Assembly: GCF_032854445.1 (NCBI RefSeq)
Contig: NC_088302.1
Coordinates: forward strand, 9,357,338 to 9,421,337
DNA length: 64,000 nucleotides
Source: Liolophura sinensis
Taxonomy: Eukaryota > Mollusca > Polyplacophora > Chitonida > Chitonidae
Direction of reading: 5' to 3'
Positions 6,801 to 61,299 of the stretch are shown one piece after another. Position 1 is the first letter of the stretch. Every line of letters begins with the position of its first letter. The notes beneath the pieces are model-generated. The model saw nothing but the letters and a program-made list of their open reading frames with translations. It was not told the origin of the DNA and ran no database searches. A program made the translations under genes and the position numbers.

Positions 6801-9800
6801 AGATTGAGAAAGTATGGACCAGATCTCATTAAAAACGCCCTTTGATTTATGGTGAACTGGATTGTAGTTGTGTGAGCCATACCTTCTGAAAGAAAAAGGT
6901 TGAAGGACGAACCTTATAATACCCCTCCCCCCCCCCTTCCCCAGACAAACCCAAAAGAGAAGACGTCCAAATTGTTGCTTTCGCTTGTCCAGTATCTAGT
7001 ACAACTCTGGTCGCCTATCTTTCAAAATACTGTTTAACTTATATGATTTCTGGGGTGCTAATTAAAAGGTGTACACGTATGGGTAATTATAGATAAAGTC
7101 ATATGATGGTTTCTGGAAAAAGCACACAGTGGGTAGGCCTAATGCATTGATACAGCAATGCTTGCAGGGCTTGCCAATACATAGTGCCAGCAGGTCTTAG
7201 CCACATAACGTCACCCGGCCAGGGCTCTCTGGTCGACATGATAGGCAGAAGGTCCAACTTTAATGGGTTTTTTTTTTTAAATGAAATGAGTTGACGCAGG
7301 ATTTTTTTAAATGCAGTTTACAGACTCACATAGCATAAATATTGTGTCTATGGAACATTTAGTGTGAACGTTAAGTCGTTGGGGATCTCCTTTAATAAGT
7401 ATGTTTTGCTATAACCGTCTCCTAGCCTTAATTAGCTTATAGGGATGCATTTAAAGATATACCCCAATAAGAAATTATTTTATTGATTTGTCACGTCTGT
7501 TATATGAAGCATACAATTTATCTTGATCCTGTCCTCAGTGAACTACTGTAATTTGTTTTAAACACCATCTGAAATAATGTTACTTGTAGTTTTCTATTAT
7601 TTTTATGTTTTTATTATTGCTGCATTACTTGTTGTTAAAAAAACTGCACAAATATATTTCTATGAGAACAAATACATGCTGAGGACATATCCTCTCCTGT
7701 CACTGAAACTGTTACTATACGGAAAACAATATTTCTGAAAAAAGAATAGCAGAAGCATTGATTATTGGAGCCTCCGTGGCCAAGGTGGTTAGCATGCCAG
7801 TTCAGCACAGTGACCCTCCCACCAATGCCGTACATGGGAAGGCCTGCAGCAACCTGTGGATGGTCATGGGTTTTCCCCGGACTCCTCCCAGCTTAATGCT
7901 GGTGACCATTGTATTAGTGAAATAATCTCGAGTACAGCGTTAAACACCAAATAAATAAAATTGATTGTGGGTTCATTGAAATACCCAATCTACAAATGCA
8001 GTTAAAATAACTTATTATTAATAAATATGCATGACTCACCAAAGTAATGATTTCTTTATTACACAAGTTAAATATTTATCTGATTGGTGTTAAATGCAGT
8101 GCTGAAGAATTTCACTTAATTATGATGGGAATAAGGTTCATAGGGACTGGGAATTAGCAAACAGCAATATTAGTATAATAAAGAAAACAATTTCTATATT
8201 TGTGGTGTTTTTTATTGTGGAAATGTGCCCCTTTTGGAACAACTCCACACTTCCCCTTTTTCACTGAGCTAGGGGTTTGCATGTAGATATCATTGCTTGT
8301 TCATAATAAAATGTAAATAGTATTCAGATATCCTTCATCGTAATATTAATAAAATATAAGTATAATATTTTCCAGACAAATATCCCTATCTCCCACTCCT
8401 AAATGTAGGTTTGATTATATTGAAATATACTATAGTTCGAATGAATGTGAATGTATACAGAGAATTGGTTTGTTATGCACAGTACTTTTCTTTGATGAAT
8501 TCCTGCACTCAGGAAGTGTATTCTCCCTTTTCCAGACGACGACTGACGGTGTGTCCGGTACTGGAAGGAGAAGACAACTTGAAGCTGTTGAATTACCAAC
8601 ACAACCTGATTACCCGCATACAACACCTCAGCTCATTGCGCAGACTCATCTTCCTGGATCTCTATGACAACCAGATAGAGGAGATATCAGGTCTCAATTC
8701 CCTCAAGTGTTTAAGGGTGCTCATGCTGGGCAATAACAGGTAGGTTTGTCAGAACTTGTACTGGTAATAACAATGAATAATTACATGGTATCTTGAAATA
8801 TGTATTTAAGATTCATTGCTTTCTTCTGTCTGTTTTCAGGATTAAGAAAATTGAGAACCTAGACAGTTTGTTAAAACTGGATGTATTAGATCTCCATGGT
8901 AACCAGGTAAGCTGTTTCACATTTCCATATTAGGTTTACTTCAGTACTTCACACTGAAAGCTACCATGCTGTCATGTGATGGTTTGTTCTATGTATGTCA
9001 TATGTCATCTGCATGTTTGCAGCATTTTTACACCTATATATTTATTGTGCGTAGTTTTTTTTACTTTTACTCGGTTGCCTTAATATGACTATAAGGTGAG
9101 GGCTGGCTTAATATTTCATCGTATGAAAGTTAACTTCTTTTGGTTTTCTATTTAGGGTATGTGTTAAGAAAAAACTATTTGTACAGGATTTGTGGCAGTA
9201 ATGAATATGTAAACATATTGTACAATAATGTTGAAAGACTGTTGAAAGATAAACCCTCATTCTCATGTAAAGAGAGCATCATTTGAAGGGCTTTTCCCAA
9301 TACAAACAAACATTATGGTCTACCCTTGGAATCATGTATACATATCATTCAGTGAGTAGGTCATGACTGGCCTGGCTGGTTGTAACAGAAAGTTTGGTTT
9401 AAATTCTACAAATGAAATGATGTAGATACATCTGAACTAGTTCATTAAGCCACACCAGTAGAATGAATTTGAAGGTTTGCTCAGACATATGGCTTGTAAG
9501 TGAGGCAATATTCCATGTAGAGTTGAGAAATGTGCCATGGTATGACAGTTATGAGTTATATCCCCTGACAGATCACAATGATTGAGAAGTTGAACCACTT
9601 GGCGGAACTGCGTGTGTTGAACCTGGCAGGTAATCTGATCACACATGTCAACGGTCTGACGGGCATGGACTCTCTGGCAGAGCTCAATCTGCGGAGAAAC
9701 AAAATTAAATGTGTGGTGAGTGTTAGCAAAGCTTCTTCCTGTGTGTTTTCCTCAACTTTTTGATCAGATCAAATGGTAACTTTGAAAGCATTTGTGCACA

Positions 9801-12800
9801 TTTTTTAAAATTGAGTTCAGATGACTTGAAATTTTAAATACATGTAATAGTCAAATAACATAAGTTTAAATAAATATTTTGCTAGTATGTTGTACATGTA
9901 TGTATTCAAGCAAACTGAGGTGGATTACTTTTACACTATGCAGTACAGTACACTTTACCAGCTTTTCGTCTAGGCATTTGTCAGTTACTATTGAAATGGT
10001 ATAGTTTTTTTCTCCTCAACTCATAAACCTGACTATGATGATATATAAGTGATGTATTTACTTGGTTACTATATGGTTAAACCCCCAAATATGTGTGTCT
10101 TTGCCTTGTAGACGGAAGTGGACAATCTGCCGTGCATAATGAGGCTGTTCCTCAGCTTTAATGACATTGTCAGGTGAGATTGGATGTATTGGTTACAGTC
10201 TGGACAAGACTTGAAGAAGCTATACCAGAGATTTTTGCCAAAAATTAATCAGCTCAAATCTTGCTATTATTTTGGAACAGCTCAAATAATTACTTTTGAC
10301 AAAATATCAGCCTTTTCTCTGCATGTCACAGTTCAAAATCCGTAAAAAAGTTACTAAAATGTATAAAGTCTGATGCATTGTAAGTTTTTTAAACATTACA
10401 ATCATTTTAACACTATAAACAGTACAAGTACGATATTTACTGATTGACAATAATTTGAGCTGTTTTTGGCAAATACAGAAACTTTGAGTGGATAAGCGAA
10501 TATGGATTATTTGTGTCAAAAATCTCTGGTATAGCCTTGTTAAGGCTTTTTCTTAGGTTAACTGTATAGGTGAATTTCATAAGTGTTTTATTTATTTATT
10601 TATTTGATTGGTGTTATACGCCGTAGTTTTTTTTTTTAGCAACCACATTGGTGAGAGGCTTCTGGGTCACTATGCTGTGCTAGGGTGCTAACTGACTGAG
10701 CCATAGGGGCCCCCTATAAGTGTTTTATGATGCACTAAACACAAATTTTCATTGAAATACTCAGCATGGTGATGAGGTATAAAGTGAGAGTAACTGGGCA
10801 GAGCTATGTGAAATAACCAATTCCCTCTAAATAATTGGCCAGCCTCTGGACTTTTGTGTGGTATTCAAACCAGCTGGACCAGCACAGGCCACAGTCTAGA
10901 TAACCAGTGTGTGACATACATGTATTTGTATATGACATTGTGCACAAAAAGTCTTTCACTCAGACCCCTTATTGAGTACTTGGCCCATGTTAAGAGGTGT
11001 ATAATGTAGGAGTGTTAGGATGTAAAAAATTTGACTGATAGACAGACAGATTGACCATCTACTGATGACTAACAAAGTGGCTTTGGAACAGCAATACTGC
11101 CAAATTCGCAAAACTGCTCAAGTTCAATTTCTCTGTTTTTATGTAAACATGTAGTCTATTAGTTAAAGAGTAACAAGGCAGTCTTCTCTATGAAGAACAT
11201 TCCAAAAAAATAATTTACAAAATTTTGTTAATTTAGACTCTTGTGATGGCAACAGTTAAATAAATAAGCATGCAATATATTGCAATTTTTTGATTCATTA
11301 AAATCCAAGGGACATTAAGGCAAGAAAATTCAAGTCTTAGGATTTTTGGCCAGAGGGAACAGGACTAAAAACATGTTTATTTTATGACCCATAATGCTAC
11401 TTTTACCTGAGCAACTAAATGGCAAATTGAAATCACTTTTCCAAAGCCAGAGAAAAACAGAACTAAAACTAAAAATGCCTTTGCTTCCATATTAGCTTAA
11501 CAACACACAAATTACCTTTCAAACAAATCTTCAAACAAATGTTGCATGCACGAGTCTTTACTCTGCCTGAAGAAGCCTTTGGTAGTGTAACAATTTTTCA
11601 AAGATCATCCCTGTTCCTTTGTTAAAGTGTTGTTCTCATAATTTATCACGCCAGGCCTCCGTGGCCAAGTGGTTAGCCTGCTAATGAAGAACACTGACTT
11701 GGGATCCTTTCACCATTTTGGTTGCTGTGAGTTCAAGTCCAACTCATTCTGGTTTCTTCACCAGTCGTAAGTGAGAAGGGCTGCCAGTAACCGTGAATTA
11801 TTGCAGGTTTCACTTCAATTAAATAAGTAGATAAATTCAGCCCTCAATTCATCTTTCCATCTGTATAATGCCAGGGCTTTTGACATGTTGTGATCAACTC
11901 ATACCTAACTCTTAGCACGTATACTCTCATTTGATGCTTTGTTGCTTTGTGATATCAGTATGCAGTCGGTCTGTGATAGGCCCTGTTAGTCTTGATGGAC
12001 ATTGTCCTCATACTTGTTCATTTACTTGTATCATTGTGTAATGAGTGATGCCTGAGGGGCCTCCCTGGCTGAGGGGGTTAGCACGCCAGCACAGCGCAAC
12101 CTGCGGATGGTCGATGGTTTCTGCCAGGCTCTGCCCGTTTTCCCCCCTAGCAGAACGATGGCCGCCGTTGTATAAGTGAAATATTGTTGAGTATGGAGTA
12201 AAACATGAGTCAAATAAATAAATCATTTATGTCTGTTATTTTCTTTGTGTTAGTGCTAGATCACAGATTGGATAATTAGATAAATGAATAACTATGAGTT
12301 TGGTGTTCAGATAAGAGCTTTGGTCATGTGGTCTTTTTTAATTATGCTCATAATTAAAATAGGTTTACCAAGTGTGTGGTTCCTGTGGTTAATTATGTGC
12401 AAGAGGAATTGTGTATGTTTGGGGGGGTGGGGTGGTAGGCGGGGTGACGTGGCACACATGGAACTCCACGTGGACATACCTATATATTTTTAGCTCTGGC
12501 CAGGGCACTGGTCAGAGATCTGAAGAAGCTACAGTATCCAGCAGTTAATATAAATATTACATAGTTTTCTCAATGTGTAATTGGTCTGCGGTGAATAATA
12601 CATATGTTGTGTTCTGGAAATAGACGCTTATGTTTAGTGTGAGTGTCATGCTGTATGGCTAGTACCACATGTATGTGTTGTTTGCCTGGTGCTCTGAAAA
12701 CATCAAAGCTTTTCTGAACATCAACACAGCTGCGTGTACCGTAATAGTACAATATAGTACCTAAGTTTTCAGAAGTTAAGCACCAATGAACTGTTTGTGA

Positions 12801-19523: not shown

Positions 19524-22500
19524 ATATTAAAGGATACAGACATTTCCGAAAAAGTGGTGGATACAAGTGGCATGCTCTGGATGTACACGAATACGAGAAA
19601 CAACAGTTCTGAATGCTGAAAGGTGCAGCAAAATCTGGATGTAGGCCAATATATATATTCAACAATACATTTCTGAAACTGGTGGATACAAGTGGCAAGA
19701 TTTGGATGTATGTATTCTTTAATTAGAGAAGCGTACAGTTCGATTAGACTTTAGAGGTGAAGTACAGTTAAAGAAGTGGTAGAAATTCTGAATGTGCCCA
19801 TACTATTAATACAATATATTTGGTGACCATTTGCATATTTGTTCTGTACATGTGTATTGCATGGGCAGTTCAGATAATTTTGCCCGAAGAAAAAGCCTGA
19901 AAGAAAAGAATCAAGACACAAGGAACAGCTGAGTGTGAGTACATTGGGCCGAATTCTAGGCTTAAGTAAGTGATATATTACAAAAGGTCACTTCAGAAAG
20001 AGCAGTTTCTTCACATAATTTTCATCAAGTGTTGTTGAATCAGTAGCTGTGAGTGATTTTAAGACTTGCGGAAAAAACAGTGAACAAAAAGTCCTTGTGC
20101 ACATATCTGGAGGAATTACCATTTTGAGGGCCTGTTTGCAATTCCCAAAGGCTGTAATGGGTCCAGTTTGGTGTCAAGATCACAAGTACAGGTGCCTGTT
20201 GGCAATAAGACAAGCAAAAGCCAGTGTCTGACCTAATGATTTCTGTCGTACCAGAAACAAGAGTGCATTTCTCTTTCACCTGGAAGCTGGATGGTATCAG
20301 GTAACAGATATAAGCACCTGTCAATAGTTTCATGTTACATTCAGCCATTTACAGACCTCAGGATTACACAAAATGACAAAGCCTTCCAGGAACAAAGAGT
20401 ACATGTACTTGGCTGCTTGAGGAATGGTCTGAATATATTGACTCCATTACTACCAGGCAGACTCATTGTGATTTTGTCTACCATGTATGACATCAGCTGA
20501 AAGCTGAGACCTTATTATGTTTCTATTATGTGTAAGATACAAACCTGTCTCTTGTTTCTGGCCTGCATATTTAACAGTGGAATCGTGTTTTTAGATACAT
20601 GAACGAGTGCCAGTTCATAAACGTGTATGTGTTTTATATTGTGGCTTTGTGTGGACTTCCTTGCTGGATTCATGCTTTTCAGGTGCAACCTAGTAAAAAG
20701 GACAATACACATATAGATATTCCATTGAGCTTTACAACCATGGATATTTGAAAACGGCTGTATCATTGAGTCTGACAAAGCTGATTACTTTGTGTTATTC
20801 GTGGATCTTTACGGTTGGTTACAATGAGTATGACCTCACGGAAACCGCGTCCTAAGCTGTTCCTGCCAGAGCATGCATCCAGGGGCAAGTCTTACCACTT
20901 AGAGCCCCTGGGGGAGTGGAGTCAGCAGAGGCTGCAGGAGGCCTTACAGCACCGTCCTGCTCTGTTACATAGCACCAAGTGAGTACAGTGAGGTGGATTG
21001 GTGGAAATGTACATGTGTATTTATGTAAAGGATACAAACGCATTTTTTGGCTGGTCTTCCTACGATATATATTTTTCTTTTGGCGAGACAAAATATACCT
21101 GCGACCACACCGACCTCCTTGTGATAGCTCAGGTAAGAACACCAGATTCATCAAGATGTGCAAAGATCCCTCATGTCTTATCGTACAGTTATTCCAAGAT
21201 ATACTACTGTTACATAGTCTTAATTTTAACTTGTCATAAGTTTAGATATGAATGGGCCTTAAGGGAACCCACTCCAACTGTCATTTTTGAATTTGTAAAC
21301 AGTACATGTACATGTAGGTAAACATTTTATTTCTACATGAGGGGCCTCAGTGGGTTAGCACGCCTGCACGGCGCAATGACCCAGGAACCTCCCACCAATG
21401 CTGTCACCGTGAGTTTGTCCAGCTCATGTTGGCTTCCTCTCCGGATGTGCATTTGAAGGCCTGTCAGTAACCTGCGTTTCCCTCAAGCTCGGCTTGGTTT
21501 CCTCCCACCATTTAATTCTGGCAGTCGTTGTATAAGTGAAATACTCTTGAGTATGACGTAAAACACCAATCAAATATATAAATTTCTACATGAAATAGTC
21601 AGAACATGATACATGAAGTGGAAAATTTCATTAATCATTTCATCTTGAACAGGAAAGCAGCAGCAATGTTAGGATATAGGGACAAAGTACACTGCACTTT
21701 AGGGTGTTCAGATTGTAGCGTTCACATACATGTAGATCCATAAAGACAAAGCCTGGGTCAGCCTAGCATAACTATTTTAAACATGATTGCTACTGATGAC
21801 AATGTAGATTTCTGCGGGTAACAAGAGTGATGAACTGAATATAACAAGTTTTCAACTTCATGTATGTTACCATCATACCTGTCTGCTCAGAATGGTTGCT
21901 TGTCTATTTGCTATCTTGTTCGTGTGGATTTGCAGCCCTCACATGATAATGTTGTACCATTATTAAGGTTTAGTCTTTTTGGTACACAACATGTTGGTTT
22001 AACCCTAGCCGTGTATAGGAATTCTGCTGCTGTCACTGCATTATAATCTTGAAAAATTCTTGTGTGTGTGCATGCATGTAAACATTATTTTTGAGAGGAT
22101 TACTATTCATGTATTTGCAGTATTGAGGACACATCACTTATCACATCCATATTTCCAGTTTTGTGAACATATGACATACTGGTACCATGTGCATTTTCAG
22201 TTTTAACAATGTATTGTGTGTGTACCTTGAGTGTTAGTGCCATATGTATATTTTCAATTTGAGGTTATATCTTGTATCATTTATGTATTATGTTTTGAGG
22301 ACATACCATGTGTGCGTTTTCAGTTTTGAGGACTTATTATGTGTATTTTCAGTTTTGAGGACATATAATGTGTGTATTTTCAGTTTTATGGACATATCCT
22401 GTGTATTTTCAGTTTTACGAACATACCATGTGTGTATTTTCAGTTTTACAAACATACCATGTGTGTATTTTCAGTTTTGAGGACATATCGCGTGTATTTT

Positions 22501-25500
22501 CAGTTTTACGGACATATCCTGTGTATTTTCAGTTTTGAGGACATACCATGTGTGTACTTTCAGTTTTGAAGACATACCATGTGTGTGTTTTCAGTTTTGA
22601 GGAAATTGTATGATGTGTGTTTTCAGTTTTGAGGACATATCATGTGTGGGAGAGTGCAGCACCCTGTCAGAGCTGTCCCTGGACGGCAATCCTCTCACCC
22701 AGGAGTCTCACTACAAGCAGTCTGTCCTGAGACACATGCAGCAGCTCAAACAGCTCGACATGAAGCGCATCACGGTGAGATACAGTTGCGTACATGTGTA
22801 CTGTGTGACCAGCCTTTAATCTGGTGGCCATTTATTCATGGGTGCATGTTTGACTCTAAACAGCATTTACTGTAAATCTTCAACCTTTTCAACTGCCTGT
22901 CTTCAGTGGAATTTATGCATACAGTCATTATGTAAATAGTGCTAGAATAACTTGTGTGTGTCATTAAAGATGCAAGCTTCATAAAACTCTGCAAATTATT
23001 TCTCTACACCCCATAGTTCTCCCAGAATGCCCCAAAATATTTGTTGCAGAGGTGGTTGAAAGCTTGAAGATTTGGGTATTTTTGAAAGCAACATTAGGGA
23101 ATCAATAAGAATATAACCGGCGGTTAAAAGGGAACGCATTTAAATTGAATGACACAGCATAATGGTTCAACCTGATTGAAATGTCAAGGTCAGATTTGAC
23201 GTAGCTTTGACAATCACCCAAGTCAAGTCTGTTCTGTTCATATACAAATCAGAATTGTCCATTCATCAGTATTTAAGCAGATTTCCTGTATTCGATGTTC
23301 TTTTAATAGTTTTTTAATAGCTGAAATAGTAACTATAAGTTTCAGAAATGTTGATGTTGATCAAAGAGCAACATTCTGTAATGATACATGTTATGGATAT
23401 GTATTTGTAACATTTATAAAGTTGATTGAAAAGACTAGAGCCATAACTGAAGTGGAAACATTTTTGTTGTATTAGTTGTAAAACTTATCACCTTTTTTTC
23501 TTTTTTTTTTGTGTGGGGGGAGGGGGGGTGGATGAGGCATTACCATACACCCCATGCATTTACACAGGAAAAGTAATGGGTGTAGGTGTTCATATTCATG
23601 TATTTCATATTTAAGTTTTGACATATTATTATGTAAAAAAATTATTATATTTCATCAAGTATATTAACCGATAGTCATTGATAATATTGATAGTGAACAT
23701 ATAAGGAATTCCTTGACATTAAACAGATTCTTATCCAACATGCAGATTTTATTAGATTGTAATCACAACTCTGTTTACCTGCAGGAAGAAGAGAGAAGAA
23801 TTGCCATAGTGATGGCACGAAAAGAAGAAGAGAAAAAACGAGAGATAAACAAGATGGCTATTGTGAAGGTAGCTGGGAATTGTTTACATTTGTGTTCACA
23901 GAAATGTGGTCAGAATGTGTTCTCAGCAGTGTGCACATGGTGCATTCTCATTCACAGCAGTGAGGACACATTGTGTTCTCAGCTAGTATTATGGAAACAG
24001 ATGTAATGTGGACACTGGACTCATTTGGTTAGCTCACTAGCGCAGCTGAATAACCCAGGAGTCTCTCACCAATGTGGTTGCTGTGAGTTCAAGTCCAGCT
24101 CATGTTGGTTTCCTCTCCAGCTGTAAATGGGAAGGTCTGTCAGCAACCTGCGGATGATCATGGGTTTTCCTCAGCTCTGCCCGTTTTCCTCCAACCATAA
24201 TACTGTATAAGTGAAATGTTCTTGAGAACGGCACAAAAACATCATTCAAATAAATAATGTGGACACTGCATGTTCTCTCCAATGTGGACACTGCATGTTC
24301 TCTGTAATGTGGACACTGTGTGTTGTCTGCAGTGTGGACACTCTGTTCTCTGTAATGTGGATACTCTGTTCTCTGCATTGTGGACACTTTGTGTTCTCTG
24401 TAGTGTTGACACTGTGTGTTGTCTGCATTGTTGACACTGTGTTCTCTGCATTGTTGACACTGTGTGTTTTCTGCAATGTGGACACTTTGTGTTCTTTGTA
24501 ATGTGGGCGCTGTGTGTTCTCTGCATTGTTGACACTGTTTGTTCTCTGCAATGTGGACACTGTGTGTTTTCTGCAATGTGGACAATGTGTGTTCTCTGCA
24601 ATGTGGACACTTTGTTCTCTGCATTGTTGACACTGTGTGTTTTCTGCAAAGTGGACAGTGCATGTTTTGTATAATGTGGACACTTTGTTCTCTGCATTGT
24701 TGACGCTGTGTGTTTTCTGCAATGTGGACACTGTGTGTTCTCTGTAATGTGGATACTCTGTTCTCTGCATTGTGTACACTGTGTGTTTTCTGCATTGTGG
24801 ACATTGTGTGTTCTCAGCAATGTGGACACTGTGTGTTCTCTGCATTGTTGACACTTTGTGTTCTCTGCAGTGTGGACACTTTGTTCTCTGTAATGTGTAA
24901 ACTGTGTGTTCTCTGCATTGTTGACACTGTGTGTTCTCGGCGATGTGGACACTGTGTTCTCTGCATTGTTGACACTGTGTGTTCTCTGCATTGTTGACAC
25001 TTTGTGTTCTTTGCAATGTGGACACTGTGTGTTCTCTGCAATGTGGACATTGTGCGTTCTCTGCATTGTTGACACTTTGTGTTCTCTGCAATGTGGACAC
25101 TTTGTTCTCTGTAATGTGTAACCTGTGTGTTCTCTGCATTGTGGACACTGTGTGTTCTCGGCGATGTGGACACTGTGTTCTCTGCATTGTTGACACTGTG
25201 TGTTCTCTGCATTGTTGACACTTTGTGTTCTTTGCAATGTGGACACTGTGTGTTCTCTGCAATGTGGACATTGTGCGTTCTCTGCAATGTGGACACTTTG
25301 TTCTCTGCATTGTTGACGCTGTGTGTTCTCTGCATTGTTGATACTTTGTGTTCTCTGCATTGTTGACACTGTGTGTTTTCTGCAAAGTGGACAGTGCATG
25401 TTTTGTGCAATGTGGACACTTTGTTCTCTGCATTGTTGACACTTTGTGTTCTCTGTAATGTGGACACTTTGTTCTCTGTAATGTGTAAACTGTATGTTCT

Positions 25501-28500
25501 CTGCATTGTGGACATTGTGCGTTCTCTGCAATGTGGACACTGTGTCCTCTGCATTGTTGACACAGTGTGTTCTCTGCATTGTTGACACTTTGTGTTATCT
25601 GCAATGTTGACACTGTGTGTTCTCTGCAATATGGACAATGTGGACACTGTTCTCTGTGTTGTGGACACTGTGTGTTCTCTGCATTGTTGATACTTTGTGT
25701 TCTCTGCAATGTAGACACTTTGTTCTCTGCATTGTGGATGCTGTGTGTTCTCTGCATAAGTACATACATATAAAGCATGCATTATTTTCCAGCTACCTTG
25801 AAAGAATAAATTTCCAGCACTGTATGACCTCGAAACAGAACACTGTTCCACGGCAGCGTGGATATAGTAAGATCCTACCATCGGGCTATTCACTTCACAC
25901 AAAATTTGGATATTGTGGGTAATTTTACAGTGTTGTAGCTTTGGAATTACACTTATCTGTTCTATACAGTTGTTTATAAACATTACATGTATATGGCCAT
26001 TTTTACAGTTATGGTATGCATTAAATATGCCAAGTCGCATTTCTGTTTAGGTCGGGTTTGGTCGTGTTGGTTATGTACATGAATAAACATGTACATTATC
26101 TGTGTACATGTATGTTAGAATGCAGACCTGTCATTGAGTCATGTTTGACCATTATTACAGGAAAAACGTCGCCTGGCCATCAACAATGCCAAACGTCAGT
26201 GGGAGGTAATGCAAGGCTCACTTATACATCACACCGGTAAACTGGGCAAAATGCCTGATCTGTATGCAAACCACGTAGGGACATTTTCCACAGCCGATGT
26301 CATAAGGCATACACGCTCAGAAACGCTAGAAGACAAAGATGAGGTTTCCTCTGTCAGGTTTGTCCTTTTTCTCTCTTTAGACCTTTTCAGATGAAGACAC
26401 ATAATAACTTGGATTCTGTTAACTTTAACTGTGTACACGTGGTGATTGCCATGTAATGTTATATAAAAAAAAAGATGTATATTGGGAAATTATTTATAAA
26501 GCACTTCATGAACTACAACTGTTACTATTTTTTGCTCATGGTAATTCTCACTAAGTCATGTAATGTTGTAAAAACATGTGTTTTGAGAAATTGATGTCCT
26601 TCTTATTCCAATCTCAATGTAAGCTGCAAGGAAACAGTTTCTCAAAGTTATATTTTTTTGTCAAAGGGTTAAAATAAAACTGCTCATAAAAAAAGGAAAT
26701 TTAAGACAAACTTAATGTATGTTATACAATGTAGTGACCTAGCAAGTCGACCTCAGAGCAGCACGAGTGTTCGAAGTGCTCCGACGGAACCCTATGGAGA
26801 TGGAACAAGGTCAAGGCCAGGCTCACGAGGAAAGGGAGATAAACCCTCACTGACACCTTTGAAAGAAACCATGACATTTGCGTGAGTGAAAGTTTGAACA
26901 AGTGATAGGAGTTAAAGTCACAGGTGTTCCTTTCCATATGAATGATTGACGTTCATCTATGAATTTTGTCCTGGAGCTATTCTGTTTTTGTTAAAGGATT
27001 GTTACCAGCAGAAAGGTGTGAGTTCTAAGAAAAAGCACACCCAGCATGTTTCATTCTTGTGCAAAGTAATACTCAAATACAAATGCAAAATTTTATCCAA
27101 ACTTTTTTGCCTTCCCAACAAATTTTCATGTTTTATATATCCTCACATGAGGTTAATTTCTATGTAATCAACTCCTCCTATGGCACTACCATCTACTTTA
27201 TCTTATGTACATACTGCAATGCACAAAAACATTGGATAACTCTGACACAAGCTCTAATCCTACAGGGCCCCTGGATCTAAGGGAGGTAACTCTGAGATGA
27301 GTCACTTGGCAGATCTGGAGGCAGACAAGCTGAGTATTTATGGTCCTGGTGCAATGGAAGCTTTAGACAAGAACTGGGGTATACATGCTGCAGGGGCTGT
27401 CACCACTATCACCTTCAAATTTATAGACTTTGATGTCATCTCAAAACATCTGCATAAAATCAGAACACGATTTCCATCCGTCCATGTAAGTGCCCCAATT
27501 ACATTCACCTATCCTATATGGTGCATAAATCATGCTGAAGAATTCATGGTATCAGGTGACAGATGATTCAAGGTGACACTCATCTGATATGATAGCATTC
27601 TAGTCAGGTTGTTGGTTTTACATTTTTTTTGTGTACTACTTTTTAAGCATTGTCATGAACAGCAGATAAAGTTAAGACAAAATGTATTGTCATCAGTAAT
27701 TAGGTTTATTTAGTTGATAAAGGCTGTGTCATCTATGAAGTCCAGCAGTTCCCCACCCTTGTAGTTGTGGGTTCAGGTTTGAATCTCATCATCTTATCTG
27801 TAGCATTATGTGGTACTTGCAGAGATGCAGTAGTTCGCTCTGATTTGATTAGTTAAGTTTTGAAGTGGCTTACATTTGAAATATTGGTACTGTTAAAGAA
27901 GATAAATATTGGCCAAGTCTCATTTACAATGTAATTGAATGGGGTGAATTTTTTTGTTACATATTATTAGAACCAGTATCAGTTGATAACTCTGTCATTT
28001 ATTCTCTTGGATGCTGAGCCAGTCATTTGAATCATTCAATCACGGCATGTTTTGCAGACCCTGGTGTTCAGTGCGACCAACATTCGGTGCCTTCAGCAGC
28101 TGAACGCGCTGTCCAATGTCCGGAGACTGGAGAACCTAACGATAGACGTGGAAGGGAATCCCGTAACCAAGTTTACACACTGGAGGATTTACACTCTCTT
28201 CAGACTCGCTCATTTTAACCTCAAGAAAATCAATGATATTGAGGTAAAGAAAATTCACCAAGATTTTAATACTTATGTGGTGGATATTTTAATCCGCTTA
28301 TTCAGTCTTTATTTATTAGATAATTGAGATATTGATAGTTTGGTTTTCTTTTACCAATTTGAGATTTTTTTTTTCACCAGATAAAAGTAAAGTTATATCT
28401 GTTTACATGCAGAACCTGGTGTGACTTTTTAAATGATATATTTTACAGTTTGATTACCTGAAAGGATTAGTGTTCTGATTAGTTTTTTATTCATAATTAG

Positions 28501-31500
28501 CTATTCCTGCTAATATTGTTATTGTGTTGTTAATATATTGTTAAATTGAGTGTAAAAAAATATTGGAAAAAAGCACAGTAATCTGAGTAATATGGCATTA
28601 AAATCACTAGATAATGAGGCTGGGTTTATGCATTTTTTCCGTCAAAACTCAGTAGTCTTTGCCGTATGACGTTATACAAGTCCAACCTTTTTCGAACTGT
28701 CAGAGCTTCTCCATTTAGCTTGGTGTTAAAAAAAGCCACACAAGTCTAACAAATTGTGAACTGTATTCAACAACGCGATGGCCTTTGACAGCTATGGAAA
28801 TACTAGCGGTCTCTAACACGCTACAGAGGACAATGAAAATCGAAAACAATCCAAATCTAATCATGTTACTTAACTGCATAATTCAAGAATTAATGACTAG
28901 GGTTGAAATACTGAGTGTTGATTAAAATTACTCATCAAAGGTGCGAAATCAGGTGACATCTCTTTAGAAACTGCCCCAGGTAGGTGCGAAAGCAATCTTA
29001 CGGTGACAGTCCATCCGTCATTGTTTTAATCTCTGATCCAGGTTATGAGGATTAGCGACATTGCAGGAAACAAAAGAGGATTAAAGCCACGCTTCATAGT
29101 ACCTGTTGGGAAAATTAAACAGTTGTAAGAATTTTTTTTTTCGTAATGCTGTGATTAAATGACAAAAATTAATACCTGTGAACCCATTTTTGAAGTAAAT
29201 CCACTCGGGGAATAGAATGATATTTATTGTGAATCTGACAGAAACAAAGAATAGTAAATATTAAATCTGATACACACACAAAATGTAGACCTACAGTGTA
29301 AAACAGGATAACGCTATAGCTTAACAGTCCGCATTGTCAGTATGGTTGGAAATGCCTGGTTAAAGATCAAATTCAACGTCTGGAAACTCGGAATCTGAAG
29401 GCTGATCAGAGATGTCAGTGTCTTAAATCGAAACTTCAACTTCATCCACTGTGGGCTCAAAGTGATATAGCAGTATGTTTGCTTCTGTGTACGTAGAATC
29501 CATCTCGAAAATGACATCGTTTTGATACGAATTGCCAGGTTATACGGGCCAGCTAGGCTTTGGTTGGCCATCTTTGACGTCACCGGCTGAGCTTTACATG
29601 GTGATCAGCCAGGGTAGTAAATCTATTGGTTTTGGTGGATTTAGAGTCATGATTAGGTTTCTAAGAGGCCCTCCTAGTAACACGCTGTTGAGCAGGTTAT
29701 ATTCTTTATACTTGGGACAAGTAGCTAAATCTGGACACTAATCCTTTAATTCCTGAACATTTTGTGTAAGAAAGAGCAACTTTCAGTGAAACGGGCTCAC
29801 CTTTTGGGAGACAAAACTATATTGGTTGAGTGGACGAATTTGAGGCATCACCAAACGCATCATTCCATCAGTCTACACAGAATAATGCCCTCAGAATATG
29901 CCTGAATAAATACCATGCAATGATGTCATATATGGATATTTTAAAATGCTTACTGTGTCTTTATTTAATGGGTAATTCAGATATTGATAGCCTGGTTTTC
30001 TTTTACCAATGTGAGATATTTAGGTGGTGGGGGGGTGGGGGGGGGGGGGAACCATAAAAAAGTATCAAAAAAGTAAAGTTACATCTGTTTCCACTAAGAA
30101 CCTGGTGACACCAAAAGCATCATTTCATCGGTCTACACAAAATAATGCCCTCAGAATATGACTGAATAAATACCATGCAAATATGTAAAGAGGTCAAAAA
30201 TCACAGTAGTGCTTATGTTTTGTTTTTTTCCCCCACTCAAACAACAGTGGTCAGAATTTAGGGTATAAATCTGACCAATGTCATATATGTGAATTGTTCT
30301 TGATAACAGCATTAAATAGCTGTCAGATGTAGAAATCATGGCCGCCATGCTACATGTCTGCATGTCAGTGACAATGTCTTAAACACTGTAAATAAATACT
30401 TAATTAAATTTCAACCTCTCTTATTTTTATTTAGGTGTCATCAAGCGACATAGCACAAGCAGAACGATTGTTTGGTTCCCTGTCACACCTGACGACATCA
30501 CAGTTACCTCCATCCCGTCTTCTCTCATTGTTAGGGGAAAGTAGGTCAGTGCTGGCTCGTTCGTGTTTTAACTTAATGCGTGTAACATTAATACTGTAGT
30601 TGTGCTGTGGTCTCTTCATAATTGGAAATAAAACAGTGTCAGTAGTTGTTAACATCTACCGTAGTATCTCACAGGCACAATGATGCTTCAGCAGAGGAAT
30701 CTCCCTTTGTAGTTTGTCAGCCATTGTCAACTAGCATATACAAATTGTACATGTGCAGCAATGAAATCAGTGCAACCAGTACAGTTACTGAATTAGCACT
30801 TCATATAGTGTTTTTATGTTACAGTGTACAAAGTCAAACACATAGCATATTAACATTAGTACTATTACATAATAATGTGGTCACTTCACAGTACAAAAAA
30901 AACATCAATCTGTCACAATGTGGTAATTCAAAAATCACATTTTGTATCCCTGTCTGTAGATCTTTGTTTAGTTTTGTAATTTTTAATGAATGTTTAGAAA
31001 TATGGTAATCCGCCGATGGTTGTGGGTTTCCCCTGGCTCTACCTGGTTTTCTCCCGCCATTATGCTGGCCACTATCGTATAAGTGAAATATTCTTGAGTA
31101 TAATGTAAAACATCAATCAAATAAATAAATAAAGTTACTGTTCATACAAAGTAAAGAATATGACCCTACCACCTACCCCCCATCCATCAACTAATCTGTT
31201 TTTTTGCTTTGTAAGACTTTTGTCTTTTTGCAAGTGTAAATCCATATTTTAGGATATGTATGTTTCTTTGTGATTCTTTACACGTATTATGACTGAATTG
31301 TTGACAGATTCACATCCTTTATTTGACAGGAGAAAACAGATCATGGCTCTATATGAGGACAAGTCACGGAGATCAGAAGTGAAAACCACAGAGCGACCCC
31401 CAGGGGAGTTTGTGGGACGATCAGGTCTGGGTTACACACCGCCAGTAGCAGACACCAAAACAGTAAGTGAATGAGTGATGGATTGTGGCCATGTCAGTAA

Positions 31501-33403
31501 TACCAAAACAGTAATTGTGCTCAAATGTCCTGCATTTCTGTGTGCAAAGAGATATAAGTGAAACTAGAAAAACTCCTAAAGGACAAGACAGCACCTGGCT
31601 AAAACATATTTCAGTCGAAAGCAGGATTCTCAAGCTTTCTAAAAAGTATCATACTTTATTATTTTAACAAGACTTCACCGAATAACATGTAGATCAAAAT
31701 GACAATACTGCACAAATAGCTGGTGTGAATTGAAGCAGACGTCTAGCTAATTTCATTCAATCAAAGATATTGCTGTCAGATTGTGTGGCCTAAGCTGTGA
31801 CATTCAGTCTGTGAAGTAACATAAGATAACAAAGAACTACTGCATAAGATATCATTTTGAGATTGTTTACAATGATTTAGTGACGTGTAGCCCAAGGGCC
31901 ATTTCAAACAGTGTTGGGGGATAGGTGTGTATCATTTACGGACCACTACAGATGTAAAATTAGTTGATTTACAAGCTGTGTAATATCCAAGGACGGTATC
32001 ACAAATTATGTCCGACAGTTGCATACTGCCTCAGCTCAAACAGCATTCATCTCCTCAGTAGACTTTAGGCCTACTTAGACACGCTGTTCAAATTATACAT
32101 ATATATTTTTTGTCATTCATTTTAGTGTTTATATTAAATAACAAATATCGGAGTGTGAAAAATTCATTAAAGATACCAAAGGTTCATGGGAATGAGAAGA
32201 CAACATCTCACTTGACAGTGCTTAAATTGAATTAATTCTTATGATATCATTTTTCTTTTCTCTAAATTTATTAGAATTGAAGAATTTAAATTTTGCTCTG
32301 TTATCTTTCTCGCATACATGAGATGATTTTTTTTCTTGTTTTCTTAAAATACAGTAAAATTATTGATATGCCGTTTTCAAGCCGAGGTGCTTTCTCTGGC
32401 GTTCGTGATAACTGTGTCAGCACTGCTTCCATCTTAGAAGCATTTAGATCAGCCTCAGTGGTGCTTAGGCCTGCATTTATTTCAAAATTGAGCTTGAATC
32501 TAGTTGTACAACAGTCCTATTGTAATTTTGTAAACATTTACCAGGGGTCAAAATCACCAGCACAACCCCTCCGAAGGCTAGGACCTGAACCAGGAATACC
32601 CCGGCCATGCATCTACAGGCTACTTAAACTGTAAATGATATAGCAGGCCTACTTGATCACAGTTCAAGCAGTTAAAGAACTATCCTTTGAATTTCAGTAT
32701 GTCCAATTTTCGAGAAAGCTATTTATCACTTGGACCTTCATCGCCAAAATCTACATCTACATCTGCCACTGCTACTGCATTGACTATAATACAGAAAATA
32801 CCTTAGACGTTAGAGAGCTAGAGCAAACGTGACGTCACCTTGCTGTTGATAATGGAGACGCACTGAAGCTGTGTCAAGACGAAGTTTCACTAAATCTTTA
32901 CTGGGTTTAAAAAGATCTAAGAAAATATTTAATGCTGGTTTAAGATACTTTGAATGGTAGTCTTTCAGTGGACATAAATGTTTATAGTCAGGTGCTGTCT
33001 TTCACTTCAAGTGGATCAAATAAGTAGAAAAATAAATATCTTTTTATATATATCACAAGACAGAGCAGTTGATAATAATGTAGCCTTAAAAGATGTGTAT
33101 TTTGAGTGACTTGGAATCATTTACCATAATGTATATTACAAACATGATGAAAAGTGTCATAATTGAACTCTCAAGTGCACGTACAAACTTTTCATATTTC
33201 AGAGCCAGTCATCTCATGCTGATGTTGCAAAGAGCTATGTGGCAGAAGTGGTAAAGGACACGCTGTATTGTGACAGAAAAAACAACGAGCTTCGACGCAT
33301 TTGGCCGCAGCTATTTTACGAAATGGTGAAAGATGCAGTTTTAGAAATGACAGACATTAAATCCTATATGAAAAAGTGTATGGAGGAAATAGAAAGAAGC
33401 TGA
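3705..33403 (+). CDS. LRRC49: LRRC49, leucine-rich repeat subunit of the tubulin polyglutamylase complex (5' end missing)
   Basis: Fourteen exons join without a frame break: 3705-3810, 8536-8739, 8840-8906, 9572-9715, 10112-10173, 22627-22774, 23785-23868, 26161-26357, 26735-26881, 27266-27485, 28058-28243, 30435-30544, 31330-31462 and 33203-33403. They encode 668 residues plus the stop. Counted from the first full codon, residues about 45-220 form eight 22-residue SDS22-type repeats (for example LDLYDNQIEEISGL and LDLHGNQITMIEKL). Residues 244-290 are a charged, probably coiled-coil helix (EEERR, KEEEKKRE). Residues 338-395 are a Ser/Gly/Pro linker, and 400-668 a conserved C-terminal module. 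Order and wording match vertebrate LRRC49 throughout, including LTVCP, MKRITEEERR and a WPQxF motif near the end. In mammals the protein works with TTLL1, TPGS1, TPGS2 and NICN1 in tubulin polyglutamylation. Exon 1 starts mid-codon, so N-terminal exons lie further upstream and were not identified. Confidence 0.93.
4560..4572 (-). repeat. GC hairpin followed by CTAG, Helitron-like 3' end
   Basis: Read on the - strand, GGGCGC-A-GCGCCC can form a hairpin and is followed two bases later by CTAG and then T. This is the order expected at a Helitron 3' terminus (hairpin, CTRR, host T). No matching 5' end was found, so this is only a lead. Confidence 0.25.
5722..5790 (+). mobile_element. tRNA-derived SINE, 3' fragment
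   Basis: Degraded copy of the tail block seen elsewhere in the window (gtggaatattcttcagtac, then gtaaaacatcaatcaaa). Only the 3' part remains. Confidence 0.5.
5964..6461 (+). pseudogene. 165-codon ORF of unknown origin inside an LRRC49 intron
   Basis: The ORF starts MDDSTVSLFHSSNNETHGSL, has an acidic stretch (SSDEDEEPFPYP), then a Lys-rich segment with YCNLC. A T-rich tract and cag at 5839 precede it like a 3' splice site. I recognise no family. It lies about 250 bp upstream of a decayed THAP motif on the same strand, so a dead transposon gene is the likeliest explanation. Further short open stretches continue to about 6710. Confidence 0.35.
6715..6890 (+). pseudogene. Decayed THAP zinc-finger sequence, transposon relic
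   Basis: The translation gives CPSVACNSNN (C-x4-C), then KLHTWPKN and EKVW, and in another frame CVSHTF (C-x2-H-x-F). About 42 codons separate the second Cys from the last Cys. This spacing and the LH-x-WPK...W core match the THAP domain (C-x2-4-C-x35-50-C-x2-H). At least one frameshift and internal stops (TGA, TAA) show it is dead. THAP domains occur in P-element-type and other transposases and in host proteins; which source applies is not resolved. Confidence 0.55.
7767..7960 (+). mobile_element. tRNA-derived SINE
   Basis: It begins ggagcctccgtggccaaggt (tRNA-like A box) and ends cgagtacagcgttaaacacc followed by an AAATA tail. It belongs to the family found about a dozen times in the window. 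Confidence 0.75.
8536..8739 (+). CDS. LRRC49: LRRC49 exon b, leucine-rich repeats 1-3
   Basis: Acceptor ttttccag and donor gtaggt. It encodes RRLTVCPVLEGEDNLKLLNY followed by repeats with LDLYDNQIEEISGL and LRVLMLGNN. It enters with one base and leaves with two, matching its neighbours. Confidence 0.93.
8840..8906 (+). CDS. LRRC49: LRRC49 exon c, leucine-rich repeat 4
   Basis: Acceptor tgttttcag and donor gtaagc. It encodes IKKIENLDSLLKLDVLDLHG followed by NQ, in frame with both neighbouring exons. Confidence 0.93.
9572..9715 (+). CDS. LRRC49: LRRC49 exon d, leucine-rich repeats 4-6
   Basis: Acceptor cccctgacag and donor gtgagt bound 48 whole codons that begin ITMIEKLNHLAELRVLNLAG. The last repeat contains LAELNLRRNKIKCV. 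Confidence 0.93.
10112..10173 (+). CDS. LRRC49: LRRC49 exon e, leucine-rich repeat 7
   Basis: Acceptor gccttgtag and donor gtgaga. It encodes TEVDNLPCIMRLFLSFNDIV and two bases of the next codon. The following 12.4-kb intron holds two alternative first exons and several mobile elements. Confidence 0.9.
10587..10715 (-). mobile_element. tRNA-derived SINE with internal deletion and target-site duplication
   Basis: In reverse orientation it keeps the tRNA-like head (gagccataggggcccc) and the tail (tttgattggtgttatacgcc) but lacks the middle. A perfect 13-bp direct repeat, ataagtgttttat, flanks it at 10579-10591 and 10716-10728, showing retrotransposition. Confidence 0.8.
11653..11825 (+). mobile_element. 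tRNA-derived SINE, 5' part
   Basis: The tRNA-like head is very clear: A box gtggccaagtggttag and B box gagttcaagtcca. The 3' part is lost after about 170 bp. Confidence 0.75.
12054..12224 (+). mobile_element. tRNA-derived SINE, internally deleted
   Basis: Head ggggcctccctggctgaggg is joined directly to aacctgcggatggtcgatgg, skipping the B-box region. Tail ataagtgaaatattgttgag and an AAATAAATAAA end. Confidence 0.75.
13115..14535. mobile_element. 1.4-kb non-autonomous element with inverted subterminal tandem repeats
   Basis: The left end (13115-13215) carries units such as ggacaaaaaccctgcgggca and gtggacatgagcgcgggagg. The right end (14428-14530) carries the complement: ggggttttgcccgggggtgg repeated, and cggggcttttatcctcct. 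Reversing the right end gives ggacaaaaccaccccc units and ggaggataaaagccc, matching the left end's ggaggacataagccc. The 1.2-kb middle is AT-rich without a coding frame. The layout resembles foldback-like or other non-autonomous DNA transposons; the superfamily is not identifiable. Confidence 0.55.
15626..15735 (+). CDS. Candidate alternative first exon 1 of LRRC49
   Basis: An ATG at 15626 opens a basic peptide, MARMNSYRSNRKLRRPKSAG, that continues to LEDFEIVG. It ends at a good donor (GG|gtaagt). Base composition and codon use look coding against the AT-rich intron. The exon ends with two bases over, exactly the phase required by the exon at 22627. I therefore infer an alternative promoter giving an LRRC49 isoform that lacks almost all leucine-rich repeats. 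I recognise no domain in the 36 residues. An unrelated nested gene is the alternative. Confidence 0.5.
16240..16380 (+). mobile_element. tRNA-derived SINE, 3' part
   Basis: catgggaagatctgccagca, aacctgcggatggtcgtggg and the ccaccataatgctggctgcc block are followed by the tail and an AAATAAATAAAT end. The tRNA head is missing. Confidence 0.75.
16841..17053. repeat. Cluster of short GAAC...GTTC palindromes
   Basis: Near-identical imperfect palindromes recur: gaacgcgctgttcac (16841), gtgaacctctcttcac (16917), gtgaaccgctgttcac (16947), ggaccgctgtcc (16976), gaacgcgctgttcac (16999) and a diverged last copy (17031-17053). Spacing is about 30-75 bp. Function is unknown. Confidence 0.5.
19255..19720. 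repeat. Diverged tandem repeat with an embedded (TA)n microsatellite
   Basis: Units containing gtggatacaagtggca, agcaaaatctggatgtaggc and related phrases recur three to five times with heavy divergence. A pure (TA) run followed by (GATATA) units occupies about 19470-19527. Open frames here are repeat artefacts. Confidence 0.6.
20824..20978 (+). CDS. Candidate alternative first exon 2 of LRRC49
   Basis: ATG at 20824, with a second ATG two codons later, opens a 51-codon reading frame. It starts MSMTSRKPRPKLFLPEHASR, includes LEPLGEWSQQRLQEALQ, and ends at donor gtgagt. It leaves two bases over and so can splice in frame to 22627. It is clearly richer in G+C than the flanking intron and reads like coding sequence. 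No known domain is visible. It is most simply an alternative start of LRRC49; an unrelated nested gene cannot be excluded. Confidence 0.55.
21339..21582 (+). mobile_element. Full-length tRNA-derived SINE with target-site duplication
   Basis: The head gaggggcctcagtgggttag, a B-box region (gtgagtttgtccagctc) and the full tail are present. A perfect 12-bp repeat, atttctacatga, lies at 21329-21340 and 21582-21593. Confidence 0.85.
22300..22640 (+). repeat. Tandem array (about 30-bp unit) made of the LRRC49 exon f splice acceptor
   Basis: Ten or more units of the form tgtgtattttcagttttgag + gacatacca run directly into exon f, whose own acceptor and first codons are the last unit. Unit length varies from 29 to 31 bp. 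Looser copies extend upstream to about 22155. Every unit carries a potential 3' splice site (tttcag). Confidence 0.85.
22627..22774 (+). CDS. LRRC49: LRRC49 exon f, last leucine-rich repeat
   Basis: Acceptor tgtgttttcag and donor gtgaga. One base completes the split codon, then FEDISCVGECSTLSELSLDG and onwards to MKRIT. The first 20 or so bases and the acceptor belong to the tandem array that lies immediately upstream. Confidence 0.93.
22868..23078 (+). mobile_element. MITE-like element, type A copy 2
   Basis: Starts tgtaaatcttcaaccttttc and ends gttgaaagcttgaagattt, an inverted pair. It shares its interior with the copy at 2546. It lies in the LRRC49 intron after exon f. Confidence 0.65.
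23785..23868 (+). CDS. LRRC49: LRRC49 exon g, charged helix
   Basis: Acceptor tacctgcag and donor gtagct bound 28 codons starting EEERRIAIVMARKEEEKKRE. This segment is highly conserved in LRRC49 and probably forms a coiled coil. Confidence 0.93.
24018..24256 (+). mobile_element. tRNA-derived SINE inserted into the minisatellite
   Basis: It contains ggttagctcactagcgcagc, gttgctgtgagttcaagtcc (B box), aacctgcggatgatcatggg and a degenerate tail ending in aaataaat. The 13-bp string aatgtggacactg flanks it at 24005-24017 and 24257-24269. It matches the minisatellite unit, so it may be a true target-site duplication or just two array units. Confidence 0.75.
24257..25765. repeat. 1.5-kb minisatellite, 23-25-bp units
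   Basis: About sixty tandem copies of gtggacactgtgtgttctct + gcaat and close variants (ttgacactttgtgttctctg). It lies in the LRRC49 intron between exons g and h. Weak copies at 23890-24004 show the array started before the SINE. Long open frames on both strands result from a stop-free unit whose length is mostly not a multiple of three. Confidence 0.95.
26161..26357 (+). CDS. LRRC49: LRRC49 exon h
   Basis: Acceptor attattacag and donor gtttgt. It begins EKRRLAINNAKRQWEVMQG, like the vertebrate KEKKRLTINN...RQW segment, and continues into a linker. It leaves two bases over. Confidence 0.9.
26735..26881 (+). CDS. LRRC49: LRRC49 exon i, Ser/Gly/Pro-rich linker
   Basis: Acceptor caatgtag and donor gtgagt. 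It encodes a low-complexity linker (DLASRPQSSTSVRS, GTRSRPGSRGKGDK). The phase fits both neighbours. The segment is longer than in the human protein, as expected for a linker. Confidence 0.85.
27266..27485 (+). CDS. LRRC49: LRRC49 exon j, start of C-terminal module
   Basis: Acceptor atcctacag and donor gtaagt. It contains LSIYGPGAMEALDKNWGIHA, matching vertebrate LSLYGSGALESLDRNW, and ends KIRTRFPSVH. Confidence 0.93.
28058..28243 (+). CDS. LRRC49: LRRC49 exon k
   Basis: Acceptor gttttgcag and donor gtaaag bound 62 codons beginning TLVFSATNIRCLQQLNALSN. They contain the family-typical stretch ENLTIDVEGNPVTKFTHW. Confidence 0.93.
28285..30190. repeat. Intronic duplication between LRRC49 exons k and l
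   Basis: The block 28285-28425 (gatattgatagtttggtttt, cttttaccaatttgagat, agtaaagttatatctgttt, agaacctggtg) recurs at 29935-30110. A second block (gtctacacagaataatgccc, tgaataaataccatgcaa) occurs at 29833-29915 and 30105-30185. A 12-G run (30029-30050) interrupts one copy. Confidence 0.65.
28640..29760. other. Unassigned sequence inside the LRRC49 intron, possible old transposon
   Basis: About 1.1 kb, locally richer in CpG (tgacgtta, tgacgtcaccggctg), lies between the duplicated intronic blocks. No convincing coding frame or termini were found. Confidence 0.3.
30435..30544 (+). CDS. LRRC49: LRRC49 exon l
   Basis: Acceptor ttatttag and donor gtcagt. It encodes VSSSDIAQAERLFGSLSHLT and LLSLLGES, leaving two bases. 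It aligns with AERLFGILAH and ISILGDARKK of the vertebrate protein. Confidence 0.92.
31003..31132 (+). mobile_element. tRNA-derived SINE, 3' part
   Basis: Starts within the cgccgatggttgtgggtttc block and continues through tataagtgaaatattcttga and caatcaaataaataaataaa. The head is missing. Confidence 0.75.
31330..31462 (+). CDS. LRRC49: LRRC49 exon m
   Basis: Acceptor atttgacag and donor gtaagt. It encodes RKQIMALYEDKSRRSEVKTT and a Gly/Pro-rich stretch ending in PVADTKT. In frame on both sides. Confidence 0.88.
33203..33403 (+). CDS. LRRC49: LRRC49 terminal coding exon
   Basis: Acceptor tcatatttcag precedes 66 codons and a TGA. The sequence reads SQSSHADVAKSYVAEVVKDT, then LRRIWPQLFYEMVKDAVLEM, and ends MEEIERS. 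The WPQ-F-E-V-DAV pattern is the conserved LRRC49 C-terminus. An ATTAAA near 33551 could be the polyadenylation signal. Confidence 0.93.
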   Translation, partial: SQSSHADVAKSYVAEVVKDTLYCDRKNNELRRIWPQLFYEMVKDAVLEMTDIKSYMKKCMEEIERS

Positions 33404-34870: not shown

Positions 34871-35228
34871 GGCTTGACTGGTCTTCGTCTTTGATAGCAC
34901 CATGTACCCGTGTGACTGGTGTGGTCTTCATCTTTGATGGCACCATGTACCCATGTGACTGGGGTGGTCTTCATCTTTGATTGCACCATGCACCAGTGTG
35001 ACTGGGGTGGTTTTCATCTTTGATGGCACCATGTACCAGTGTGACTGGTGTGGTCTTCATCTTTGATGGCACCATGTACCCATGTGACTGGTGTGGTCTT
35101 CATCTTTGATGGCACTATGTACCCGTGTGACTGGTGTGGTCTTCATCTTTGATGGCACCATGTATCCGTGTGACTGGGGTGGTCTTCATCTTTGATGGCA
35201 ACATGTACCCGTGTGACTGGGGTGGTCT
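34871..35228. repeat. Minisatellite, 43-bp unit, about eight copies
   Basis: Unit: tgtgactggtgtggtcttca + tctttgatggcaccatgtacccg, with few substitutions between copies (acccg, acccat, accagt). The high similarity suggests recent expansion or homogenisation. Confidence 0.92.
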
Positions 35229-37210: not shown

Positions 37211-37915
37211 AGTATATTATCTGGGCATTTCAACCTACCTGGGCATATTTCTGATATACATTTATCAATTCCCGTCGGGGCACATTTCTGACATATCATA
37301 CCCTATCTAGGCATATTTCTGATATACCACTTCCCATCTGGGCATATTTCTGACATATCACTCGCCATCTGGGCATATTTCTGACATTACTCACCATCTG
37401 GGCATATTTCTGACGTATTATTCCCTGTCTGGGCGTATATCTGACATATCACAGGACATCACCCTCCATCTGGGTATATTGATTACACAGGATATCACAC
37501 TCCATCTGGGCATATTGTTGACACAGGACATCATTCGCATCTGGGCATATTTCTGACACGACATTCCACTCCATCTGGGCACATTGTTAACACAGGACAT
37601 CACACTCCATCTGAGCATATTGTTGACACAGGATATCACACTCACTCTAGGCATATTGTTGACAAAGGACATCACACTCCATCTGGACATATTTCTGACA
37701 TGACATCACACTCCATCTGTGCATATTGCTGCCACAGGACATCACTGTCATCTGGACATATTTCTGACACGACATCACACTCCATCTGGGCACATTGTTT
37801 ACACAAGACATCACACTCCATCTGGGCATATTGTTGAAACAGGATATCACACTCACTCTGGGCATATTGTTGACAAAGGGCATCAGACTCCATCTGGGCA
37901 TATTGCTGGGCATGC
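37210..37915. repeat. Minisatellite, about 39-bp unit, about eighteen copies
   Basis: Units of the form ccatctgggcatattgttga + cacaggacatcacact alternate with a shorter form (catatttctgacatatcac). Open frames across it are repeat artefacts. Confidence 0.92.
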
Positions 37916-56312: not shown

Positions 56313-56410
56313 GTAAGGATACAAATTCAGTTACCATGTTTCGGTCTAAGTCGTCCTGGCCTTGATCATATAGAGACTGTTAGTGATAGTGTGATACCTG
56401 ATCAAAAAAC

Positions 56411-61299
<4,889 letters not shown>

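Follow-up and report, generated by a model that had tools for sequence, protein, structure and literature searches.

Tandem amplification of an intron–exon boundary has been described in amphioxus, in which minisatellite-like duplications termed 'mirages' occur in the globin genes BflGb6 and BflGb9 and in Adh3, TnC and PGBD5 (PMC3087553, PMC3902484; these reports, like the others cited, are represented here by excerpts). The BflGb6 mirage repeats the 3′ end of an intron together with the 5′ part of the next exon, with splice signals in many copies; its units measure 150–160 bp and number six and three in two haplotypes, those of Adh3 measure 10–72 bp, and the amphioxus mirage is portrayed as having a concerted interior and excluded boundaries (PMC3087553). 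The PGBD5 mirage (60 and 108 bp) is imperfect, and the excerpted account has the Adh and TnC mirages generating no aberrant mRNAs (PMC3902484); data on Adh3 and reverse-transcription PCR of the globins suggest that regular splicing is left undisturbed, and Adh3 proved somatically unstable (PMC3087553). Here we describe a tandem array of acceptor-like boundary copies in front of a coding exon of an LRRC49-like gene, within a 64,000-nucleotide window of Liolophura sinensis contig NC_088302.1 (positions 9,357,338 to 9,421,337 of the forward strand; 37.6% GC; coordinates below are those of the window). The array is real and beyond chance, and is a further example of the published mirage phenomenon: probably an intronic minisatellite seeded by the LRRC49 exon border, the upstream copies of which would be fossil acceptors and roughly neutral.

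As in amphioxus, units spanning an intron–exon boundary, here placed by reading frame and homology, lie in tandem; the copy flanking the exon is, on the same grounds, an authentic coding-exon border, with 22627 in frame with exon 10112–10173 and continuing a leucine-rich repeat (LRR) protein; and splice signals survive in many of the copies, with 14 pyrimidine-rich AG acceptors lying upstream. The copies of the PGBD5 mirage are imperfect too (PMC3902484). The LRRC49 array, seen in one haplotype, is unlike the excerpted amphioxus cases in its gene, its 29–32-nt units and its 11 or more copies; exclusion of both edges is reported there (PMC3087553), whereas here it is clear only at the 5′ edge. 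The sequence-only reading that preceded this analysis had called a coding-exon border seeding a minisatellite unusual, which is fair, although the phenomenon was already in print. Among the papers listed by a full-text literature search, in which 'mirage' was sought only together with amphioxus terms, none is, to judge by title and opening of the abstract, an account of the LRRC49 array, which is weak evidence of absence; the examples encountered under the name of mirage all come from cephalochordates.

Two further systems bear comparison. Intron 18 of human ABCA7 carries a variable-number tandem repeat (VNTR) in which each 25-bp unit opens with the exon 18 donor and the use of one additional unit causes a frameshift and truncation; the VNTR is length-polymorphic, and in the excerpted account its length is correlated both with skipping of exon 19 and with reduced expression, unit retention being unaffected (PMC5954066). 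Like the LRRC49 array, it is an intronic minisatellite of similar unit length that sets out from the edge of an exon and carries a splice signal in its unit; it repeats the donor (GT) 3′ of its exon, whereas in the LRRC49 array the acceptor is copied together with exon codons, and the donor border of exon 22627–22774 has no repeat in the 1.5 kb that follow (score 7.0, against a shuffle mean of 8.0 and maximum of 11). In potato RdRp, as excerpted, a duplication also crosses the intron–exon boundary and copies the acceptor and tract, but there one duplication led to a new spliced intron, (PMC4974935), whereas the LRRC49 array consists of many short copies.

Anatomy of the array and identity of its exon

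The features on which the argument rests are as follows.
About 3.7–33.4 kb, plus strand: LRRC49-like gene, found by Pfam and by tblastn with part of human LRRC49 as query.
10112–10173, plus strand: upstream LRRC49-like coding exon, ending ...GACATTGTCAG/gtgaga and giving the AG of the split Ser codon AG/T.
22110–22224, plus strand: three decayed boundary copies, with an acceptor-like CAG before 22121, 22159 and 22201 (nhmmer, with pattern matches at 22114 and 22152).
22293–22626, plus strand: main array of 11 units, each comprising exon start TTTTGAGGACATAYCATGTG and intron end TGTATTTTCAG (Tandem Repeats Finder (TRF) and unit alignment).
22365–22604, plus strand: higher-order 120-nt tandem duplication within the array (22365–22484 versus 22485–22604, identical at 107 of 120 positions).
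22595–22626, plus strand: last unit, 32 nt, atypical in its middle and adjoining the exon; it holds the true polypyrimidine tract and CAG, and an AG-free stretch of 23 nt leads up to the true AG.
22627–22774, plus strand: true exon, 148 nt, FEDISCVGECSTLSELSLDGNPLTQESHYKQSVLRHMQQLKQLDMKRIT, the first ~22 nt of which are the coding part of the repeat unit.

Each unit joins the last ~11 nt of the intron (TGTATTTTCAG) to the first ~20 nt of the exon (TTTTGAGGACATAYCATGTG), head-to-tail, in register and orientation. From 5′ to 3′ the unit lengths are 31, 29, 31, 29, 31, 31, 29, 29, 31, 31 and 32 nt (four of 29, six of 31 and the last of 32), no two of the 11 units are identical, and 12 of 31 columns vary among the 10 units in register. 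TRF, which had been proposed as a check, reports the array at 22292–22648 with periods of 31 (11.7 copies, score 425) and 60 (score 436). The sequence-only reading had counted at least ten units of 29–31 bp; the number stands, while the limits widen to 29–32 nt and, through the three decayed copies, back to about 22110. It had identified the repeated unit as the border of a coding exon, comprising the 3′ splice site and the opening codons, and units in register with the exon start bear this out.

Chance does not account for the pattern. The 20-mer TTTTCAGTTTTGAGGACATA with up to three mismatches occurs 13 times in the window including the true junction, always on the plus strand and between 22114 and 22639, compared with a mean of 0.02 (maximum 1) in 100 dinucleotide-preserving shuffles. 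An nhmmer profile of the unit, which the 11 main units match by construction, recovers the decayed copies at 22110–22136, 22150–22172 and 22190–22224 (E 0.008–0.014) and elsewhere in the window yields nothing below E 0.1, the best matches being 24782–24817 (E 0.1) and 60586–60602 (E 0.21). These three outermost (5′) copies are the most decayed, and the 11 main units match the first 18 nt of the exon at 13–17 positions with no trend along the array. Translated, units read FEDIPC, FTDISC, FTNIPC, FMDISC and FEDISR where the exon reads FEDISC, and 2 of the 11 carry a stop in that frame. The strongest internal lag of the array is 120 nt, and the two 120-nt blocks differ at 13 positions; we infer that this four-unit block was duplicated after its units had diverged.

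Judged by reading frame and homology, the border of exon 22627–22774 is an authentic coding-exon boundary. With the partial human query, tblastn gave matches in protein order at 8552–8740, 8811–8912, 9569–9724, 10115–10222, 22619–22774, 23779–23868, 26137–26214, 27300–27488, 27983–28246, 30435–30545 and 33230–33391, in an output that also held off-register LRR matches and chance matches and in which some matches overrun exon ends. The match at 22619–22774 reaches 56% over 52 residues and includes the final 8 nt of the intron; where the exon begins, both it and the human sequence read S-F-x-x-x-S-C. Exons 10112–10173 and 22627–22774 join in frame (...FNDIVSFEDISCVGECSTLSELSLDGNP...; extended reading ...FLSFNDIVSFEDISCVGECSTLSELSLDGNPLTQ...), and the LRR pattern, read by eye, continues through the 10173/22627 junction. 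In the joined protein, Pfam LRR_4, LRR_9, LRR_8 and LRR_1 score above their cut-offs and LRR_14 and LRR_LRWD1 below theirs, with LRR_9 spanning residues 78–220 and thus crossing the exon junction. When the 37 AGs in 22081–22720 were tried as acceptors, the frame stayed open to the exon end only for 22627 and for 22660, which lies inside the exon and would cost 11 codons. A PDB search with the exon protein returned 32 sequences, none named LRRC49, the best (E 0.0016) being a dynein regulatory complex LRR protein; a search of genome_contigs and viral_contigs with the joined exon protein gave 62 and 14 pattern matches, respectively, and no confirmed relative, as expected for an animal gene.

Splicing potential of the copies

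An upstream acceptor was defined as an AG that follows a pyrimidine and has seven or more pyrimidines among the 12 positions from −15 to −4, each site being numbered by the first base after its AG. Fourteen upstream sites pass, with first exon bases from 22121 to 22595, and all of them, joined to exon 10112–10173, reach an in-frame stop before 22627. The earlier claim that upstream copies are acceptor-like and that their use would truncate the protein is thereby upheld, including for the three acceptors that it had translated, placed at 22533, 22563 and 22593 and correctly located at 22533, 22564 and 22595. In 500 simulated introns (first-order chains with the same dinucleotide make-up), however, the same 14 positions gave a mean of 12.75 stops, and all 14 stopped in 21.6%. 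Truncation is what simulated introns lead one to expect and is not evidence of function, and we rejected the idea that universal truncation is a sign of design.

Acceptor strength was scored with a matrix built from 16 other junctions in the window, which were read by eye, some of them doubtful, so that the scores are rough; the other junctions were scored leave-one-out. On this scale 13 of the 14 upstream acceptors score 3.0–5.9 and one scores 0.49, in keeping with splice signals preserved in many copies. Ranked with the 3596 plus-strand AGs, the 10 main-array decoys occupy the 86th–95th percentiles and the true acceptor the 86th; the AG-free zone is 20–29 nt for these decoys versus 23 nt at the true acceptor. 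No measured feature singles out 22627. Folding of the RNA at 22290–22774 gives z = −1.80, with 5 of 100 shuffles as good.

Other repeats and genes in the window

We compared 36 border stretches of 18 exons with the adjoining 1.5 kb, upstream for acceptors and downstream for donors, using a table in which several exon ends are approximate, having been read by eye, and in which 4395, 5840, the start at 56402 and the end at 61296 are perhaps not splice sites. Only the 22627 acceptor is clearly repeated nearby (score 30.5; maximum of 40 shuffles 11), and border duplication as a general habit of the locus was discarded. The putative LRRC49 acceptor at 4395 scores 13.5 (shuffle maximum 10) in AT-rich repeat sequence (TRF 4330–4381), probably through low complexity.

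The remaining features are these.
24041–24262: element resembling a short interspersed element (SINE), matched at 15 other places in the window, on either strand (E up to 0.001).
24256–25756: 25-bp minisatellite of ~61 copies, also periodic at 73 and 221, lying in the second intron that follows exon 22627–22774.
34879–35229: tandem array with a 43-bp unit in 8.2 copies (92% matches), situated 3′ to the final LRRC49 coding exon that was identified.
37263–37908: adjoining 31-bp and 36-bp arrays, starting at 37263 and 37450.
About 56.4–61.3 kb: kinase gene, probably ERK3/4-like to judge by its sequence.
57283–57380: 2.3 copies of a 43-bp repeat in the kinase gene, between the first and second of the exons read there.
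62906–63176: 66-bp tandem array, 4.1 copies.

The boundary unit scores 12 against the 25-bp array (11 of 300 mononucleotide shuffles as high), 11 against the 43-bp array at 34879 (12 of 300) and 10 against the 36-bp array (3 of 300). Given 20 comparisons, we do not count these as signs of common origin, and the boundary array appears not clearly related to any of the three; the 31-bp and 36-bp arrays form the only clearly related pair (0 of 300 shuffles as similar). By eye, similar decayed phrases of the 25-bp array begin at ~23890, right after exon 23785–23869. The SINE-like element presumably resembles molluscan elements. Meta-family SINEs range from fish to cnidarians. Their presence in bivalves is noted in the excerpted part of PMC10294476.

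Origin of the array and competing explanations

In the history that we favour, the last ~11 nt of the intron and the first ~20 nt of the LRRC49 exon would have been tandemly duplicated, and rounds of slippage or unequal exchange would then have built up copies on the upstream side, the later 120-nt block duplication among them. The exon-side edge would be the true acceptor and the upstream copies fossil acceptors. Copy-number changes would be tolerated because the acceptor–exon junction still works after an exchange whose break falls in the intron portion of a unit. The authentic acceptor would be used in most transcripts because it adjoins a short 148-nt exon; this adjacency is the likely reason for its use, by exon definition. 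Transcripts using upstream copies would carry premature stops and be degraded. We infer both the direction, from exon to array, and the near-neutrality. The direction is the simplest history, with the exon border most likely having seeded the array because the exon codons fit an LRR protein, and it rests partly on the partial human LRRC49 query. The sharing of sequence by exon and array would also suit a pre-existing intronic minisatellite onto whose unit the exon border moved or by which it was converted (exonisation of a repeat), sharing alone giving no direction; yet the first exon codons fit the LRR pattern with Pfam LRR_9 running across the junction, and S-F-x-x-x-S-C is found there in human LRRC49 too, making this order of events very unlikely. 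About equally improbable is that an assembler inflated or collapsed the copy number. Short-unit arrays are often misassembled. An aberrantly assembled mirage is mentioned for the amphioxus draft in the excerpted report (PMC3087553), but here all 11 units differ, as do the columns and the 120-nt blocks noted above.

Several observations weigh against copies that are mere near-neutral fossils of the exon border. By the rough matrix, the true acceptor (3.45) is the second lowest of the 17 acceptors read in the window, and 11 of the 14 upstream copies exceed it (3.6–5.89), which would favour some decoy use; those below it are 22353 (3.40), 22201 (3.0) and 22238 (0.49). The core TTTCAGTTTT shows no variation across the 10 units in register (longest run without change 10; column permutation P = 0.037), leaving room for acceptor constraint, a weak hint in that the units are non-independent and the block was picked post hoc. 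The last unit, though atypical in length, matches the exon start at 14 of 18 positions (others 13–17) and is not the most divergent main unit, so that edge decay is clear on the 5′ side only; and the weak profile match at 24782–24817 (E 0.1) falls inside the 25-bp array. The acceptor scores, AG-free zones, truncation at all 14 sites, the invariant core and the correlation of ABCA7 VNTR length, in a repeat carrying a splice donor, with exon 19 skipping and lower expression (PMC5954066, excerpt) could together suggest that the copies compete for U2AF and the spliceosome, some transcripts being lost to nonsense-mediated decay, with array length setting LRRC49 dose. We regard this as unlikely: truncation is near random expectation, the matrix comes from 16 junctions read by eye, amphioxus arrays of the mirage type are reported, in the excerpts, without disturbance of splicing (PMC3087553, PMC3902484), and retention of one ABCA7 unit, which uses the repeated splice site and makes up ~2% of isoforms, is there described as unaffected by VNTR length (PMC5954066). 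Nor, given the simulated introns and the amphioxus reports, is the earlier proposal supported that the copies are decoys modulating splicing or dose. Less probable still is a self-renewing, length-tunable splice attenuator, perhaps outside cephalochordates, in which the fraction of LRRC49 transcripts removed through premature stops would be set by acceptor number and unit exchange would restore the junction and could import variant first codons into the exon. That the array is a first step of intron gain, a unit later acquiring a donor to become a new small exon or intron, has precedent in the potato RdRp duplication (PMC4974935, excerpt) and has been proposed from amphioxus mirages (PMC3087553, excerpt), but a stop interrupts the reading from every one of the 14 upstream acceptors, and we hold it to be the most improbable of these accounts. 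The mirage-type minisatellite, seeded by the exon border and probably near-neutral for splicing, stays our preferred explanation.

The LRRC49 array is a clean further case in which the border of a coding exon has been amplified into an array of acceptors. With about a dozen near-identical acceptors spaced at 29–32 nt, it offers a natural test of how the spliceosome chooses among them and of whether the number of units has an effect, as length does in ABCA7; a decoy or dosage role for the copies, weakly hinted at here, is possible and testable. In a host other than amphioxus, such an array would suggest that mirages are no peculiarity of cephalochordates.

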